Position numbers and translations under genes: made by a program. Under the pieces are notes generated by a model that saw only the letters and a program-made list of their open reading frames with translations, did no database searches and was not told the origin of the DNA. From a virus, in the IMG/VR virus record IMGVR_UViG_3300020195_000009, positions 124,001-188,000 of that record: 64,000 nucleotides of DNA; one strand, written 5' to 3'. Below, one piece after another: positions 12,474 to 63,224 of this stretch. The first letter of the stretch is position 1; each line of letters begins with the position of its first letter.

Positions 12474-15400
12474 TCAGGGAGCGAGGGGACGGCCGTTCTC
12501 GGCCTTGCCTGTCTGGACCGCCTGCGACTGGTCATCCTTGTATTGACCCATGTAGGGCTCGTCCGAGTCCGTCTGCTTGGGGGCCGTGGGGGCGTTGAAC
12601 GTCGGCATGTACTTCTCATCCGAGTCCTGCTGGATGACCTTCGCAGACTTGAGGACTTCCACCTGGCGCTTGGCGAGAGACTCATCCCCGTAGGTCGCCT
12701 TCTCGATGTCATCGGCCGTCCGATCGAGATCGTTGACGATGTTCTTGGCGGTCTCGAAGTCCATCCCCCACTTCGTGTGGTTCTCCTGAATGTAACCGGC
12801 GACCTTGTCGAGCCGGTCCAGGATGACGTTGGCTTGCTCCTTGGCGAATTTGACGGTCATGGCGTTTCCCTCTGTCTCTTCCGTTGAGGAGGTCTTTCGG
12901 ACCCCTGGTTTGGTTCCCGAAGTGGCTTTCTCCACCTTGAACCCGAACTTCTTACCTACGTCTTGAAGGGCTTTGAAAGCCTTATCGATGTCCGCTTCGG
13001 GGACTTGAACCCAAACAAGGGTCTCCACACGAAGGCCTTCCTTCTCTTGATGGAAGGTGAGGAAGCCGCCGCCACGGGTGTCCACGACCCGGAGATTAAC
13101 GTCGTGCTCCTTACCGTCGTCACCTTCGGTCGGGATCCACGTCTTGTTGATGGCGTTGATCGTGTCGATGTTGAAGGGAACCGGCTTACGGGTGGGGACA
13201 AAGAGCACGGTGATCGTGTCCACGCCGTAACCGAAACCAGCCGTGTGGACCGTCAACAAGGTCTCGCCCGCAGGTTGCGAGGCCAGTTTGGCGAGCATCA
13301 TGTTGTACAACGGAGCGGAGATCGCTCCGTTGTACTTGCCATCCTCAGCTCGTTGAATCGCGAGGTCCAAAGCGGCTCGGAATCGAGCATCAGGAACCAT
13401 CCCTTCGACGGACTTCGACAGGATGGGGGACTTGAGCCAGTCCTTGGCGGCTGCCAAGAGAGTTCCAAAGTCACTCGGCCCGAGGTCTCGTTGGTGAACC
13501 TGATGCCACTCGGGGTACGAGGCAAACCCCTCGTGACCCTTTGGGTAAGGCTCAACGCCATGATAGATGGCCGTACGGACCGCTTGGCGAGCGTCATCGA
13601 TGGAAAGCGGAGGGGTGCCCATCTGCCAATTTCGGTCCCGATAAGAAGAATAGAGAGAAGCGACCCGTAACGAACGAAGCTCGTCAAATTGCTCCTGACG
13701 GGCCGCTCGCTCCGCCTTGGAGGGCTTACCTTCGTAACCAAGAGGCTTCACTGGAGGCTCCGGGGCGAGCGGGGGTTCAGGTTCAGGAACCTCAAAGGGT
13801 TTTGAGGGGGTCCGATAAGGATCTCCTTTGGCCAACTCCTTCTCATGCTTGATTTTCGCCTTAGTCCACTCGGTGTGCTCTCGTTCAAAGGCCCTGTAGG
13901 CCTTTTTCTGTTCTGCTTCCGCAGCTTTGAACTCACCAATAGACTTCTCGTACGCCTCACCTTCTGCTTGTTTGAGGAACTCCTGGACCTGAGCTTCCTT
14001 TTTGGGATCAAGCCCGCGTAGGGACTGACGGACCCGAACTCGGAAGACCATAGATGGGTCATCAAGCGCAGCCTTTACCTCGGCTGGGTAACGCTTACCT
14101 GCTTTGCGGATCATCTCCGTTGCAGCGGTTAGCTTGTTGGCTATTACTCTCGGGTGGTCCCGCTCGGAGATGACGTCGTTGGACTTTGGATCCAAGAAGC
14201 GCTCATGAGCGGCTCGGTAGTCCTCCCCTTGGAGGTTGGCTACCGCCACCATCTGCGTGTGGGGATCCAGCTCCTTAAGGTTGGATAGGAGCTTATTTCG
14301 CTCTTGGTCCTTCAACGCCTCGCGTTTGGTATTTCTTGAGACCAAGCCAAACCTCTCATCAGGATCCTCACTAACTTGAGGGAACCCGGCAGATGCTTTA
14401 CTAAAGAGGTTTTGAGCTGCCTCTTTAGCTTTGGACTCTCGTTCTTCAGGTGGGAGTGAAGCAGAGGTCAGCGATAGATGAGCGAGGCTGGGTGCTAGGT
14501 GACTGGGAACACCAGACGATTTGAGGGCGTGTGAAACACGCATTTGGGTCGTAACACTAGCCGCTACAACTGCTACCCGATGCTCTTGTACAGCTTGAGC
14601 CTGCTCTTCTTTAGACAGCTCCTCAAATGGCTTTTCAATGCCGTCCGAAGCCTTCCCCTTCTTAGGGAGGGTCTTCACCAGAGCGGGATCCGTGGTGAAT
14701 GAAGCCCCACCATTTTGAATCTCATCTTGCACACTTCGAGGAGCTGGGAGGGACTTGAAGTCTAGGTAGTTCGCAACGACAGCCTTTACATCCTCTGGGT
14801 GCATCAACCTTAATTGAACACGGACCTGAGGAGGTAGGTCTGTGGTAAAGAGTAACTCTGTAGCCTCATGTATCTGTTGCTGAGTGGGGGGCTTTCGCTT
14901 CGGCGGGGGGAAGTCTTGGGCGCTCGTAGGCTTCTTCTCGGGAGCCTTCTCCTTCTCAGGGGCCTTCTCACCTTCAGGAGTCTTCTCACCTTCAGGAGTC
15001 TTCTCGGGGGTTTTCTCTTCCTCGGGGGGTTTCTTGGTGTCGACCTCAGCGGGAGCTTCCTGAGGTCTCTTCGTCCGCTGGGCTTTAGCTACAGGCTTTG
15101 GAACAAGCTCAAGAGCCTTCTTGAGGTCACCAAGGGTTTTGATTTCAGGTGGGAAATCTGCCTTGGGGAAGACCTCTTTTACAGGCTTGCCTGGGTTGCT
15201 ATCGGCGACAGCTTGCAACGCGGTAGCTGGATTTGAAAACGTACCTATGGCGCTCTTTAGGGCCGGGTCGTTCTTCGCTCGCTCTTGAAGCTCTTCCCCT
15301 CCGATACGAGCATCCAATTCCTTGATTGGCTCGTAGGGTGCCTTCGGCTCAGGGTTGAACTTGTCTCGCTTCTTGGGGGCCTCTTGTTTCGATTTAGGCT

Positions 15401-16406
15401 CCTCGGGCTTCTTGGGGGCCTCTTGTTTCGCAGGTCCAGGCTTTTTTTCAGTGTCTTCTGCTGCGGGATCTTCGGGTTTCTCAGTCCCAGGCTTGGGCTC
15501 TTCCTTGGGCTTCTCCTCTTCCTTGGGCTTCTCCTCTTCCTTGGGCTTCGGACCCATCAACTTAGGTGGTGGCTTCCCGTCTCTCTCCGCATCCTCGACC
15601 GCCTCAAAGTGATCATTGATCCACTTCGGGATCGACTTCGACCATGTGACCGCATCCCCCACGGTTTTGAACTTGGCAAGCTCAGGGTGACCTTCGAGCC
15701 CCTTCACCTCCGAAATGGGTGTGTCCTGCGGTAGATCGGAGATCGTTGACAGAGCCTTTTGAAAGACAGGATCCTTCTGGGTCTTTTCAAGAATCCCCTG
15801 GACGAAATCAAATTCCTTACGGTGCTCAGGAGCTAGGGGATCCGGCTCAGTTCCAGGTTTTTCCTCGCGGGTCTCTGGCTTACCCCCCTCGGGCTTATCT
15901 TCAGGCTTCTTATCTTCAGGCTTGACCGGCTTGTATCGGGAGGGGTTGTTCTTCGCCGTCGTCTCGGGAACCGAGACGACCTTTTTCTCCTCCGAATCGA
16001 AGACCGAGACGTACTTCTTGGGACCGGATTGAGCCGGCTTGCGCTCTTTGAGGTCTTTGCGCTTCTGGGTCCGCTTCTCTTTACGTCGCTGTTGGAACTT
16101 CGGGTTGGACTTAGCCTCCAGGTAGCGGCTCACCACCCGGTCCTCGATGGCCGGCTCCAGAAACCGATCCACAACCCTAGCAATCAGACCAACGGAACCC
16201 CCGACCCTTTTGTAATTGAGGGATAGGTCTGGGTCGCTCTTGGTGTCCGGGTCCCCCTCTACATCTGGATCTCGATCCGGCTGCATATCGTCACGACGAC
16301 GATCCCTGCGAGGGGGCTTCTTCTTGGGTTGAGGACGGACAAGGCGCTCCGCCTCATCATCCTCTTTCTCCCCATGCGTCTTCGTGGCCAGAAAATCCAT
16401 GCCCAC
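12474..16406 (-). CDS. Giant low-complexity protein of the head gene block
   Basis: 1310 residues (frame opens at GTG 16406; ATG at 16400 is the likelier start). Order: basic N-terminus with RVVDRFL and RVVSRYLEAK at about residues 78-100; a long K/E/P-rich region (about 120-500) made of EEKPKEEEKP- and PEGEKTPE-like repeats; two similar folded modules beginning DPVFQKAL and DPALKSAI; a long helical region; a globular region near 990-1190 that ends VQVPEADIDKAFKALQDVG; and a C-terminal 130 residues (MTVKFAKEQANVIL on). An ATG at 12860 with GAGGG before it could give a separate short product. Between portal and protease, so probably an internal head or assembly protein. Confidence 0.75.
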   Translation of the reverse strand: MGMDFLATKTHGEKEDDEAERLVRPQPKKKPPRRDRRRDDMQPDRDPDVEGDPDTKSDPDLSLNYKRVGGSVGLIARVVDRFLEPAIEDRVVSRYLEAKSNPKFQQRRKEKRTQKRKDLKERKPAQSGPKKYVSVFDSEEKKVVSVPETTAKNNPSRYKPVKPEDKKPEDKPEGGKPETREEKPGTEPDPLAPEHRKEFDFVQGILEKTQKDPVFQKALSTISDLPQDTPISEVKGLEGHPELAKFKTVGDAVTWSKSIPKWINDHFEAVEDAERDGKPPPKLMGPKPKEEEKPKEEEKPKEEPKPGTEKPEDPAAEDTEKKPGPAKQEAPKKPEEPKSKQEAPKKRDKFNPEPKAPYEPIKELDARIGGEELQERAKNDPALKSAIGTFSNPATALQAVADSNPGKPVKEVFPKADFPPEIKTLGDLKKALELVPKPVAKAQRTKRPQEAPAEVDTKKPPEEEKTPEKTPEGEKTPEGEKAPEKEKAPEKKPTSAQDFPPPKRKPPTQQQIHEATELLFTTDLPPQVRVQLRLMHPEDVKAVVANYLDFKSLPAPRSVQDEIQNGGASFTTDPALVKTLPKKGKASDGIEKPFEELSKEEQAQAVQEHRVAVVAASVTTQMRVSHALKSSGVPSHLAPSLAHLSLTSASLPPEERESKAKEAAQNLFSKASAGFPQVSEDPDERFGLVSRNTKREALKDQERNKLLSNLKELDPHTQMVAVANLQGEDYRAAHERFLDPKSNDVISERDHPRVIANKLTAATEMIRKAGKRYPAEVKAALDDPSMVFRVRVRQSLRGLDPKKEAQVQEFLKQAEGEAYEKSIGEFKAAEAEQKKAYRAFEREHTEWTKAKIKHEKELAKGDPYRTPSKPFEVPEPEPPLAPEPPVKPLGYEGKPSKAERAARQEQFDELRSLRVASLYSSYRDRNWQMGTPPLSIDDARQAVRTAIYHGVEPYPKGHEGFASYPEWHQVHQRDLGPSDFGTLLAAAKDWLKSPILSKSVEGMVPDARFRAALDLAIQRAEDGKYNGAISAPLYNMMLAKLASQPAGETLLTVHTAGFGYGVDTITVLFVPTRKPVPFNIDTINAINKTWIPTEGDDGKEHDVNLRVVDTRGGGFLTFHQEKEGLRVETLVWVQVPEADIDKAFKALQDVGKKFGFKVEKATSGTKPGVRKTSSTEETEGNAMTVKFAKEQANVILDRLDKVAGYIQENHTKWGMDFETAKNIVNDLDRTADDIEKATYGDESLAKRQVEVLKSAKVIQQDSDEKYMPTFNAPTAPKQTDSDEPYMGQYKDDQSQAVQTGKAENGRPLAP
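13305..13335. repeat. 13-bp perfect inverted repeat inside the 1310-residue gene
   Basis: GTACAACGGAGCG (13305-13317) and its exact complement CGCTCCGTTGTAC (13323-13335) are separated by five bases. It lies inside coding sequence (protein KYNGAISAPLYN), where such a long perfect hairpin is unusual. Confidence 0.8.
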
Positions 16407-24013: not shown

Positions 24014-24403
24014 TCACTTCACAGGCTTGGTGCCGCCGCCCCCACCTGTCTCGATGAGATATTGGGAGAGGTTCTTCACTGTAGCATAGCCTTTGTCTTT
24101 GGGAATTTGCTTCTCAATGACTTTGGCAAGGTCTTTACCCGTCTCAGCCAAATTGCGAACACTCGTTTGATTCGGCTTGGGGACGAACACATCCTCAGGT
24201 CGGATGTCACGACGATTGGGTGAGACGGTTTCGTCGTGACCATCACCCATGGGCTTGCCGTGCTCTTTGAGGATCGAACGATCAATACCCTTGGGGCGGT
24301 TCACGGGCTTGACCATGTCCTTGTCCTTCTTCCGTTGACCAGGGGGTTGGTCACTTTGAAGGAATCTGGCAGCCACCCGGAGGATGAGAACATCGTCGAT
24401 CAT
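24014..24403 (-). CDS. Hypothetical protein with N-terminal RVAARFL peptide
   Basis: 129 residues, basic and proline-rich in the middle (GQRKKDKDMVKPVNRPKG), start ATG overlapping the stop of the 683-residue gene (ATGA type). The first 15 residues, MIDDVLILRVAARFL, match the RVxxRY/F peptide seen near the N-terminus of the topoisomerase and of the 1310-residue protein. No family is recognised. Confidence 0.7.
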   Translation of the reverse strand: MIDDVLILRVAARFLQSDQPPGQRKKDKDMVKPVNRPKGIDRSILKEHGKPMGDGHDETVSPNRRDIRPEDVFVPKPNQTSVRNLAETGKDLAKVIEKQIPKDKGYATVKNLSQYLIETGGGGGTKPVK

Positions 24404-26412
24404 AGGTCGATCTTGGCTCTCCCCAGCTCGACAGATACGGTAGCCGCCTTGGTGGGCTCCGGGTTCAAGTCGATGGTCATCGACTTCATCCCGAACTCCG
24501 CCACGATCGACTTGTTGTTGATCATGAGGTCGGCGAGAGACACCTCATTGGCCTTCCCCGAGTTCAGAATCTCTTGCTGTTGGGCCTTTTTGTCCGCGTA
24601 CGGAGGCTCGATGACGAGCGGCTTGGCATACTTGGAGCAGTGCCCTGGGCTCGTCTGGAGGACACAGCTCCCGCACTTGGATCCCATCTTGACGTAGGGG
24701 ACGAGACGGGAGCGGTGGAGACGGGCTCCTTCGTCGCAGCCCCTACCGTAGTCATCATAGACCGCTGCATTGACGTAGTAGATCCCCTGGAGCCCTTGCT
24801 CGGAAAGGAGCGGCTTCAACTCCGGCCCGGCCGCCACGATGTCTCGGGGATCGAACTGGCGCTTGAGGAGGGCCCCGAGCTGAGACCCGTAGAGGCCCTC
24901 GTTCAAGTACCGAGAGGCGGTCTTCACGATCTCACGCTTGGTGATACCAGCCGTAACGTGGCCGTGGCCCTGACCGTTGAATGCCTGCTCCAAGTAGGAA
25001 CGGACTGTAGTGGTTTCCTGCTTCCCAGCCTTGGATGCAACCCTGTAGATTGCCTTGAGAGCCTCTTTGGGAGTTGACCCCCAAGCCACCTTGTCCGAAC
25101 CCGTCTCCAGCTTACCAGCCAGACGATGCTCCCAGATGACGTTTTTGACGACATCTTCGGTGAAGGCCGCATCGGAAGTTGCCACGAGCGGGCGTCCGTA
25201 GAGGAGACATCGAGCCATCTTGTTGTAGATGCACCCGTTGCACTTACCTCCCGCTACGATCGATTTAACGGATGGGTTGTGCTTGGCGAGGAAGTCGGCT
25301 CCGACGTGGCAATCATCGAACGAAGTCTGTGTGGAGTAGACGGTCCCGTAGTAACCTGCCTCCTTGAAGAGAGGACCCCATGCTTCACGGGTGTTCTTCA
25401 GGTCCTCCGTGGTGAAGGACAGCTTGAGAGCTTGAATCAGCTCAGCTTCCCCTCGACCCTTGAGCATCTCTCGACGAAGGAGGTTAGCGACCTCGAAGCC
25501 CTTCTTGTCCTGGGATGTCTTGATCCCAGCGGTCTTTCCCTCCACGGGAGGCTGCCACGCCTGCTCTGCTTGGGTGAAGCTCTGAGCCTGGCTGTGAAGG
25601 ACCGGAAGGTGAACCTTCCCCGGAGCCTGATTGGCCCGGATGAACTGAGCAGGATTGACGATCGGCTTGGGGGTCTCGTGAGGCCCTGCGATCTTCCCAT
25701 CACCAGCCAAGAACGCCGCTTGGATTCGACCCTTGGCGTCCGTTGTGGACGCTTGGATCTGCTTCCCCTGAGAAGCTTGCGAACGCTCGACAGCATCGGC
25801 CAAGGCTGGCGTGTACGGAACTTCCAGGACAATCTGCTTTTGGAAGACGCCGCAGGTGCTCCCAGAGCTGTGGACGCACCCGGAGCACTGGTCCTTCGCT
25901 TCCACGAACTTCGCATCCGAAGCAAAGCGACGAACGAACGCTACGACCTTCTTGGATCCTTGAGCGCAATCGGTGAAGTCCGAGGCAGAGATGTAGTGTC
26001 GACCAAGAAGCCCACGCTCTTGAAGAAGAGCGGCGAGGACCGGCTTGGCGGCGAGGATGGTGTCCGAGTCGAACCGGGAGGTGAGGGCATGCTTTAGACG
26101 CCTCAGATCCGGCGACTGCATGAGGGCGTATCGAGCCACCCTAACCAATTGCTCGGTGGCTGCTGCTGCCTGCTTGGCATGAGCTTGGCTCAGGTCCGCC
26201 ATCGCGGGGACCTTGTCCTTGTTGGGAACCAGGTAGGCGCTTGCCGGCTTGTCCTTGTGATCCCACATGGCCTGAAGATCAGGTGCAATGTCGAGGTTTT
26301 GCTTCGGGAGCTTGTCCAGTTCTCGATACTGCGTCTCGTTGACGTCGAGCCAGTCGAGGTCGGCGACCGCGCCCTCTTTCAAGAAGTCCGAGATGTCGCC
26401 GAGATCAGCCAT
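24400..26412 (-). CDS. Protein with three cysteine-cluster repeats, putative virion protein
   Basis: 670 residues from the ATG at 26412 (MADLGDIS); the frame is open to 26451 but 26412 gives the usual short overlap with the upstream stop (ATGGCTGA). Three copies of one module occur: a helical part (LRRLKHALTSRFD; ANLLRREMLKGRG; GSQLGALLKRQFD), then GLxGxxY...DDC/DYGRG, and a cysteine cluster CSGCVHSSGSTC, CNGCIYNKMARC, CGSCVLQTSPGHC followed by a conserved basic PLV stretch. The clusters are likely zinc or iron-sulfur sites. Linkers are Q/A-rich. Not recognised as a known family; location suggests virion or packaging. Confidence 0.8.
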   Translation of the reverse strand: MADLGDISDFLKEGAVADLDWLDVNETQYRELDKLPKQNLDIAPDLQAMWDHKDKPASAYLVPNKDKVPAMADLSQAHAKQAAAATEQLVRVARYALMQSPDLRRLKHALTSRFDSDTILAAKPVLAALLQERGLLGRHYISASDFTDCAQGSKKVVAFVRRFASDAKFVEAKDQCSGCVHSSGSTCGVFQKQIVLEVPYTPALADAVERSQASQGKQIQASTTDAKGRIQAAFLAGDGKIAGPHETPKPIVNPAQFIRANQAPGKVHLPVLHSQAQSFTQAEQAWQPPVEGKTAGIKTSQDKKGFEVANLLRREMLKGRGEAELIQALKLSFTTEDLKNTREAWGPLFKEAGYYGTVYSTQTSFDDCHVGADFLAKHNPSVKSIVAGGKCNGCIYNKMARCLLYGRPLVATSDAAFTEDVVKNVIWEHRLAGKLETGSDKVAWGSTPKEALKAIYRVASKAGKQETTTVRSYLEQAFNGQGHGHVTAGITKREIVKTASRYLNEGLYGSQLGALLKRQFDPRDIVAAGPELKPLLSEQGLQGIYYVNAAVYDDYGRGCDEGARLHRSRLVPYVKMGSKCGSCVLQTSPGHCSKYAKPLVIEPPYADKKAQQQEILNSGKANEVSLADLMINNKSIVAEFGMKSMTIDLNPEPTKAATVSVELGRAKIDL

Positions 26413-27982
26413 TGGAACCCGTCCTGTTTTCGTCTTCGTGTCGGAAGACATCTTGAATGTCGTTGCGGTAGTTGTGCGTGTTCCAGTCGTACTTCACGTA
26501 GGGAGCATCCTGGCGTTCCACCTTATGCCCTACGTCCATGACATCTCGGTCGTAGTTGTAAAGGGCGGGGGCTTGATCCCCAGGCATACGAGACTCACCC
26601 TCAAGGGCGGGCCTCCACGCCTGCCGAGCCCGAGCCCGAAGGTCATTTTCCGTGACGAAGCTACCAGGCCCCTCGGCTTCCAGCTTCGCTCCTCCAAACA
26701 TGTGTTCGTTGTTGTGGGCGGGCCGGGGCTTGAGCGGGGCATCAGGGCTTTGCGGTCCTGAACCAGGAAGCCCGGACTCCCCACGAAGATTCACGTTGAA
26801 TTGGTTTCCCTTGTTTCCCTCGAAGTAGTCCGACCTCGCTATGGGATCCGGGCCGTCAACGGGAAGCTGAGACTCCCCACACGCATGATCGCAAGCCCAA
26901 ACGTTGCGTTCAATTCCGTCCAAGTATGGCCCAGTGCCTTCTTCCGTGTCCCTCGTCGGAGCACCAGGGTTGTTGGGGAGACCGCTGGAGGGGCCAAACA
27001 CCCCACGACCATCAGGAGCTACCGTCCCGTAACCCTCAGACCCACGACCCTTGGCCCCGTAACCGATCCCAAAATCACGAGCTTCCGTCTCCGTAGGCTC
27101 GCTGTTGGCGTCAGGGACCGCAGACTCACCCCAAGTGACCTTCCCGGTCTTGTCGAGGACGTTGTTGGCCCAGTCGGACTCGTAGAGGTAGTCATCTCCT
27201 ACCCCTTCGGTCTGCCCCCATTCATCCTGCGTGAGAGGCTCGCCTTTGTTGTAGGAACCGTAAGGTCCCGTCTGCTCACCACGGTCAAGATGGTCAACAC
27301 GTGGCCCAGGGAGGGTCGTTACAGGAAGCGAGCTGTTGGCGTTGACGCTCCACTTGGAAGTGGCGGTTTTCTGAGGGATCTTACCGAAAGGTTTAGTCTC
27401 AGACGGGATATCCCCACCCTCAGGAACCTGAGAGGCTTCGTCCTTCTTGTTGGGGGTTCCGCCCGGACCATCGTTTTTCTTCTCGATTTGGTCGAGCTTC
27501 TTCTCCCCAAAGCCCTCAGGGTCCTCCAGAACCTCCTCAGCCTCGTCCATGAACTCCGTGACGTCTTCGGCATCGTTCTCCCCAAGATCAGCAAGCTTCG
27601 GCTGCCAGTAGGGGGCATTCATTTCATCATGAATCGTGTCCGTGATGGAGGAGAGAAGCTCGCAAGCTTGCTGGAGCTTTGCTCGCACATCCTTGACCTT
27701 GAGGACGTAGCCCCGACCCCCAAGCATCCCATCCGGGGAGATGCTTGAAGACTTGATTCGAGTAAACTCCTTGTAGGCCGTAACCGCATGCCCCAGTGAA
27801 ACGCTGGATGAGAACAACATCCGAGCCATCGGCTTGAGGGCCTTAGGGTCGAAGTCATGGTTCTTGGGGATGTTTCGCTGGAGAGTCCCATCCGTGACTC
27901 CCCCACCAAATGCCGGCGGCGGGGAGGGATCAAAACCCTCCTCCCTGGCGACAATCATGCGGACTTTTTGGTGTGCCTTCAC
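26405..27982 (-). CDS. Hypothetical protein with GES-P repeats
   Basis: 525 residues. Residues 1-135 are helical (SITDTIHDEMNAPYW). The rest is proline-, glycine- and aspartate-rich and probably disordered, with four short motifs WGESAVPD, CGESQLPVDGP, RGESGLPGSGP and EGESRMPGD spaced through it. This is unusual for a soluble enzyme and more like a virion linker or tether. It precedes the three-cluster protein, with an 8-base overlap at the preferred start of that gene. No family is recognised. Confidence 0.75.
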   Translation of the reverse strand: MKAHQKVRMIVAREEGFDPSPPPAFGGGVTDGTLQRNIPKNHDFDPKALKPMARMLFSSSVSLGHAVTAYKEFTRIKSSSISPDGMLGGRGYVLKVKDVRAKLQQACELLSSITDTIHDEMNAPYWQPKLADLGENDAEDVTEFMDEAEEVLEDPEGFGEKKLDQIEKKNDGPGGTPNKKDEASQVPEGGDIPSETKPFGKIPQKTATSKWSVNANSSLPVTTLPGPRVDHLDRGEQTGPYGSYNKGEPLTQDEWGQTEGVGDDYLYESDWANNVLDKTGKVTWGESAVPDANSEPTETEARDFGIGYGAKGRGSEGYGTVAPDGRGVFGPSSGLPNNPGAPTRDTEEGTGPYLDGIERNVWACDHACGESQLPVDGPDPIARSDYFEGNKGNQFNVNLRGESGLPGSGPQSPDAPLKPRPAHNNEHMFGGAKLEAEGPGSFVTENDLRARARQAWRPALEGESRMPGDQAPALYNYDRDVMDVGHKVERQDAPYVKYDWNTHNYRNDIQDVFRHEDENRTGSNG

Positions 27983-62560: not shown

Positions 62561-62578
62561 GACTTTAGACCTAATTTG

Positions 62579-62925
62579 TGGAGCTGCGGGGTACTGCCCC
62601 CCGGTCCTCCAGAAGTCCGATGACGCCTTCATTCACGTACGTAGTCGAAGTATCCCCCTCGACTGAGTTCGTAGATTCGGCCACGACCTATTCCCGCTGT
62701 TCCTCTCGACCTTTGCACCGCAAGACACGTGCTCGGTCCAGCCCTAGTGGTTGACAGGCTCTCCGCTACCAGGACGATCTGGCGGGAACCCGGCCTTCAG
62801 GCCGCCTTGAGAGCGGTGAAAGCGAAAGCGTTGTCGTTGGCGACTAGCTTGTGCTCGATTGAACAGGTCGAGCGCTGTTGTACGCAGATGTCACTTCTTT
62901 CCAGAGTCGAATCTATTTCAGCCCC
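62579..62925 (-). ncRNA. ssrA: tmRNA (one-piece)
   Basis: The 5' end GGGGCTG (62925-62919) followed by ATTCGACTC matches the conserved tmRNA start, and the 3' end CAGCTCC-A (62586-62579) pairs with it, including the G3-U70 wobble used by alanyl-tRNA synthetase. A 6-bp GCTCGA/TCGAGC helix fits PK1. The resume codon GCC at 62841 follows TAGTCGC; the tag is ANDNAFAFTALKAA, ending at TGA 62797 within a GGCC/GGCC helix. The 5-bp T-stem (CGGGG/CCCCG) has the loop GGCAGTA rather than TTCRANN. CCA is not encoded. Length 347, as expected. Rescues stalled ribosomes and tags proteins for proteolysis. Confidence 0.92.
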
Positions 62926-62973
62926 TTTCGTACTCCTACCCTACACCAAGAAGCATCGAAGAGCTAGTGCTAG

Positions 62974-63058
62974 TACCCGTAGAGGGAGTCGAACCCTCAG
63001 CGCCCACAAGGAGCCGCGAATTTTAAATTCACTGCGTCTGCCATTCCGCCACACGGGC
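62974..63058 (-). tRNA. tRNA-Leu (anticodon TAA)
   Basis: 85 bases. Acceptor GCCCGTG/TACGGGT with two G-U pairs, a typical leucine long variable arm, T-arm GAGGG-TTCGACT-CCCTC, anticodon loop TTTAAAA giving TAA. CCA not encoded. Shares a near-identical D-arm with the next tRNA. Confidence 0.93.
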
Positions 63059-63062
63059 CTAG

Positions 63063-63143
63063 TACTCAGGAAGGGGATCGAACCCTCACGGTTTTACCCG
63101 GTGGATTTTGAATCCACTGCGTCTGCCATTCCGCCACCTGAGC
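63063..63143 (-). tRNA. tRNA-Leu (anticodon CAA)
   Basis: 81 bases. Acceptor GCTCAGG/CCTGAGT, variable arm of class II type, T-arm with GGTTCGATCC, anticodon loop TTCAAAA giving CAA. CCA not encoded. Four bases separate it from the TAA leucine tRNA, with highly similar 5' halves. Confidence 0.93.
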
Positions 63144-63152
63144 AAGAAACAG

Positions 63153-63224
63153 TGCGCCATCTAGGAGTTGAACCTAGCCACCCCGCATATCAGACGGGGC
63201 CGTTCACCGGAAACATCATGGCGC
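63153..63224 (-). tRNA. tRNA-Ile (anticodon GAT)
   Basis: 72 bases. Acceptor GCGCCAT/ATGGCGC perfect, anticodon stem CCCGT/GCGGG around CTGATAT giving GAT, T-arm CTAGG-TTCAACT-CCTAG. CCA not encoded. Reading GAT supports isoleucine AUC/AUU codons. Confidence 0.9.

Follow-up and report, generated by a model that had tools for sequence, protein, structure and literature searches.

The window, a 64,000-nucleotide stretch comprising positions 124001-188000 of a 286,005-base viral record, carries a tmRNA gene on the minus strand at 62579-62925. Just upstream, also on the minus strand, three tRNA genes (Leu-TAA, Leu-CAA, and Ile-GAT) occupy 62973-63224 at the end of an array that continues beyond the window with 41 more. 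The tmRNA is the last gene of a 44-tRNA array covering nearly all amino acids. Other phage genes in the window encode GroEL, RtcB, an NAD-dependent DNA ligase, and a ribonucleotide reductase. Two large minus-strand reading frames (12474-16406, 1310 aa; 24400-26451, 683 aa) have no PHROG match.

The initial annotation described a complete phage tmRNA with these ends, a reading that a covariance-model score below threshold would have overturned. With cmscan, RF00023 aligns over model positions 1-374 to 62925-62576 on the minus strand, scoring 76.9 bits (E 4.1e-28) against a gathering score of 47 bits, and 62579 is the discriminator base, which bears out the claim. ARAGORN missed this tmRNA and listed only the three tRNAs in the window. 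An RF00023 profile search of the whole phage genome likewise returned tRNAs but not the tmRNA, a result that is no evidence of absence. The RNA folds with a z-score of -2.78, and none of 100 shuffled sequences was equally stable.

From its 5′ end at 62925, the gene begins with the acceptor strand GGGGCTG (62919-62925), which pairs at all seven positions with CAGCTCC (62580-62586) and includes G3-U70; the discriminator is A73. The three bases that follow (62576-62578) are CAA, so that CCA is incompletely encoded, as it is in most of those tRNAs of the same phage that were read. The D-loop, AAATAGATTCGAC (62906-62918), has A12 (62914) where standard tmRNA has G. PK1 (62853-62879) consists of the helices AACAG/CTGTT and GCTCGA/TCGAGC, and one of 200 shuffles gave an equally good pseudoknot. 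The resume codon GCC (62841-62839; RNA position 85), the tag ANDNAFAFTALKAA, and the stop codon TGA (62799-62797) span 62797-62841 and align to the RF00023 tag region. The tag, PK1-like helix, and alanine-specifying G-U pair named in the initial annotation are therefore all present. No pseudoknot above chance was found for PK2-PK4 in the window tmRNA; one downstream pseudoknot occurs in each of three relatives described below (L132, L133, and L141). The T-arm, CGGGG-GGCAGTA-CCCCG (62587-62603), closes the loop (62592-62598) with a five-pair stem, as placed by the RF00023 alignment and by the same loop in relatives and Alphaproteobacteria.

The window gene resembles standard tmRNA (RF00023) in gene order, acceptor, PK1, resume codon, tag and stop, 3′ half, and covariance score. 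Standard tmRNA, however, has a UUCRANN T-loop with a GG D-loop, whereas the window tmRNA has GGCAGUA with AG and is invisible to ARAGORN. The UUCRANN/GG pair varies across tmRNAs and is not strictly defining, and it has also been lost in Alphaproteobacteria. The two-piece tmRNA of that class (RF01849; RF04321) shares with the window gene the GGCRGUA T-loop, the ANAYAG D-loop, and an ANDN tag start. The RF01849 consensus has the T-loop GGCgGUA and the D-loop GCGAAAuAGGAUCGAC, and it is the consensus pair of GGCgGUA with GAAAuAGGAUCGAC that backs the assignment of the window's elbow to this type. Alphaproteobacterial genes are circularly permuted, while the window gene is in one piece with its 5′ half upstream, in unpermuted order over the full RF00023 model. 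The permuted model RF04321 gives only partial matches to it, all below cut-off. The initial annotation was correct that the T-loop departs from TTCRANN; the loop is no isolated oddity, as it is the alphaproteobacterial consensus accompanied by the matching D-loop change. For the same reason, weak binding of EF-Tu or SmpB is unlikely to result from the loop itself. What the initial annotation missed is the unusual point, namely the occurrence of GGCAGTA inside an unpermuted gene.

In cellular genomes, a GGCRGNR T-arm was found in 327 of 385 sampled alphaproteobacterial genomes. Related changes have been reported for the mitochondrial tmRNA of R. americana, whose T-loop has GG, and for Caulobacter, with U342 replaced by G (PMC1168896). 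A T-arm pattern with the loop GGCAGTA matched at least 120 viral contigs, nearly all of them true tmRNA 3′ ends. Among the 120 matches listed, the 5′ acceptor strand lay downstream, as in a permuted gene, in 100 and upstream in none; Rfam named those of the loci that were scanned alpha_tmRNA and tmRNA_permuted. The permuted form is also found in all the phage isolates read, which are DSS3_MAL1 and phages of Phaeobacter, Mesorhizobium, Erythrobacter, and Rhodobacter. In two Erythrobacter phages (L146 1815-2032; L147 1749-2031), a gene annotated as a proteasome-subunit or HslV-family peptidase follows the permuted tmRNA at a distance of about 0.8 kb, and it is conceivable that it encodes a phage protease for tagged proteins. 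Several permuted viral tmRNAs (L013, L043, L047, L081, and L085) have long spans, with RBS-like and reading-frame-like text after CCA in the intervening piece. Another (L052) is immediately followed by a glutamine riboswitch at 778-828, as reported for phage Melnitz.

The alphaproteobacterial elbow in an unsplit gene was found only in viral contigs, mostly large, and in one small, possibly misassigned bacterial contig. Eight unpermuted GGCRG genes were found in addition to the window gene, seven on viral contigs (six of them 181-260 kb long) and the eighth in an acidobacterial MAG. Those matching a gap pattern are on viral contigs of 198 kb (L132), 204 and 130 kb (L133 and L137, with identical tmRNAs), 19 kb (L136), and 194 kb (L141). 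Three with loop variants are on viral contigs of 257 kb (L220), 181 kb (L222), and 260 kb (L223). The one-piece scans required an exact GATTCGAC or TTCGAC motif at a set spacing, so that genes of other layouts would escape them. Seven of the 12 gap-pattern matches in viral contigs, as well as L221, were permuted genes with the upstream motif by chance, and the GATCGAC one-piece pattern gave no real case in viral contigs. A further one-piece scan returned mostly chance matches, and only those with a paired acceptor were retained. In bacteria, no real one-piece case was found among the 385 Alphaproteobacteria and 249 Pseudomonadota scanned; four matches came from permuted genes in which the upstream motif occurred by chance. 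Across the genomes of 84,980 species, a pattern scan gave a single genuine one-piece gene (L142); it lies on a 3.2-kb contig in a MAG assigned to Candidatus Sulfotelmatobacter. This contig may be a misplaced phage contig, although proof from its proteins was not obtained. The other match in that scan (L143) was again a permuted gene with a chance upstream motif.

Six one-piece genes, including that of the window, were read in detail. Each has the acceptor, G3-U70, PK1, a resume codon, and a stop-terminated tag of 10-14 codons, and PK1 differs in sequence in the five relatives. Their tags mostly start with AND and end in AA, and G3-U70 is present in every case. ARAGORN overlooked all nine one-piece genes of the GGCRG type, the window gene among them, but it did detect standard tmRNAs in control loci, some permuted tmRNAs with the same loop, and seven of 11 one-piece genes with a TGCRA loop. 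A viral contig (L240 8629-8905) combines a one-piece tmRNA of the TGCRA type with nine tRNA genes and an RNase P RNA of bacterial class A (187.7 bits). The large structured RNAs GOLLD and ROOL were observed near tmRNA and tRNA genes in related phage records (L128 899-1362; L129 742-1209; L222 1-486).

In tRNA and tmRNA, the elbow is held by the contacts G18-Ψ55, G19-C56, and U54-A58. All 20 one-piece phage genes with G55 (nine GGCRG and eleven TGCRA) have A12, while standard U55 one-piece tRNA-like domains with a TTC.A loop, taken from Acidobacteriota genomes, have a GG D-loop in 14 of 14 parsed; five other TTC.A rows most likely reflect the parser picking up chance matches downstream. Positions 12 and 55 thus change together. 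The combination of a GGC.G loop with a D-loop AG occurs in 68 distinct tRNA-like domains (63 permuted and five one-piece, duplicates removed). AG is present in 64 of the 66 distinct permuted domains parsed, two with GGC.G parsing otherwise, and Rhodobacter phage RcSimone-Hastad pairs a TGC.A loop with AG. Positions 54 and 58 also covary, as U-A or G-G, and G13 and C56 are constant. Since related sequences are not independent, these covariation counts are not counts of events; a stronger point is that the link between positions 12 and 55 holds in both gene layouts, permuted and unpermuted, and in two loop classes. As judged from sequence, the coupled change fits an elbow that has been re-formed rather than broken. 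A contact between the D-loop and T-loop is reported to be necessary in tmRNA (Barends 2002, as cited in PMC3968760).

The locus probably encodes a working one-piece phage tmRNA with an alternative tRNA elbow, that of alphaproteobacterial tmRNA, and it likely relies on the host's SmpB, EF-Tu, and AlaRS for trans-translation of the ordinary kind. Its sequence, pairings, covariation, and distribution are observed, whereas its tertiary contacts, processing, charging, SmpB binding, and tagging are predictions. The RNA would be transcribed as the last member of the tRNA array; host RNase P would trim its 5′ end, and the host would also supply CCA. G3-U70 and A73 would direct charging with alanine. 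Host SmpB and EF-Tu would then bind the charged tmRNA, which would enter ribosomes stalled on non-stop mRNA and add Ala plus ANDNAFAFTALKAA to the protein, the AA end marking it for host proteases. The exchange at positions 12 and 55 predicts that an A-G contact (D-loop A12, T-loop G55) takes the place of G18-Ψ55, so that pseudouridine at 55 would be unneeded; G54-G58 would replace U54-A58, and G13-C56, the equivalent of G19-C56, would be retained. No SmpB was found in the phage's own record, in a search with positive controls, or in five related records, so that the host would have to provide an SmpB compatible with this elbow. Several observations count against this reading of the locus. The tag ends in KAA rather than LAA, PK2-PK4 were not found, and two of the nine one-piece GGCRG genes (L220 and L222) fall below the RF00023 cut-off, both with fully paired acceptor and T-stem. 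In addition, the phage tRNA-His has a templated G-1 and C73 (L151 10987-11060, in record positions 188001-207000), unlike the type found in the RRCH group of Alphaproteobacteria, comprising Rhizobiales, Rhodobacteraceae, Caulobacterales, and Hyphomonadaceae (PMC3937112). The phage type fits other Alphaproteobacteria or other phyla.

How the elbow came to be in a one-piece gene is a separate matter. The permuted tmRNA of an alphaproteobacterial phage may have been rejoined, or its elbow spliced into a standard phage tmRNA, a tentative explanation that concerns origin and is compatible with a working tmRNA. Donors exist, as permuted tmRNAs with a GGCRG loop are common both in viral contigs and in alphaproteobacterial phages. 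However, TGCRA, a half-way loop, occurs in one-piece genes, which suggests stepwise change, and the D-loop differs in detail, being AGATTCGAC in the window tmRNA and AGGATCGAC in permuted genes. A somewhat more speculative proposal is that the form from which alphaproteobacterial (and mitochondrial) tmRNA descends persists, still unpermuted, in large phages. The elbow would then have passed from UUCRA/GG through UGCRA/AG to GGCRG/AG before permutation, with one-piece intermediates surviving in phages and perhaps nowhere else. The one-piece GGCRG form is probably carried by at least two phage lineages. L132 and L133/L137 have flanking genes in common, and their terminases, on inspection, differ widely from that of the window's phage. 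One PHROG family matches terminases in this phage's record and in two others (G001 and G002), and by eye its own looks very unlike those two. No relatives were found through the protein encoded nearest to the tmRNA (529 aa), and no ribonucleotide reductase common to the phage and the tmRNA relatives was found.

An improbable alternative is a decoy role like that proposed for the tmRNA of phage DS6A, in which the RNA would titrate away host SmpB, EF-Tu, or AlaRS and block the rescue of host ribosomes. That phage likewise carries a tmRNA tRNA-like domain, and RNA of this type inhibits tmRNA (PMC4131195; PMC11915505); the variant T-loop and the failure to find SmpB in the record would suit such a role. 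The DS6A RNA, however, has little beyond the tRNA-like domain (PMC4131195), whereas the window gene has a full mRNA-like part. The resume codon, the 10-14-codon tag with its stop, and a PK1 diverged in sequence are kept in six genes and would be needless for a decoy. Taken with tags that are mostly of the AND...AA kind and with G3-U70 in every case, they favor a working trans-translation RNA. It is very improbable that the gene is a decaying copy of a host gene or an integration-site remnant with a damaged T-loop, even though ssrA is commonly an integration site (PMC11915505), CCA is incompletely encoded, and the covariance score is modest, because the gene is complete, its loop type recurs in eight one-piece genes and most Alphaproteobacteria, the D-loop change is coupled to the T-loop, most of the phage's own tRNAs that were read share the incomplete CCA, and the species-genome scan found no unequivocal bacterial chromosome with a close one-piece counterpart.

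The preferred reading, a functional tmRNA, places the window gene beside those of Bxz1, Wildcat, and other mycobacteriophages, Bacillus phage G, Melnitz, and DSS3_MAL1, which are likewise complete, occur in large phages, and often lie beside tRNAs. In the comparison, which covers the alphaproteobacterial phage isolates, it differs from these in that they carry the permuted form. The view that phage tmRNA is known only in some large phages is too narrow, as 402 of 18,146 phage genomes were positive as of 2021 (PMC9004378); a 2025 tmRNA database holds 79 phage sequences (PMC11915505). ARAGORN, the program of the huge-phage survey (PMC7162821), missed all nine one-piece GGCRG genes, a class that is therefore probably undercounted among phage tmRNAs. 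No published account of the alphaproteobacterial elbow in an unpermuted gene was found in the openly readable literature, which is weak evidence since subscription papers were outside the search. In the cellular genomes sampled, the elbow is seen only together with permutation, and the two steps are therefore inseparable there. The phage genes separate the elbow change from permutation and include half-way T-loops, so that the order of events can be tested.
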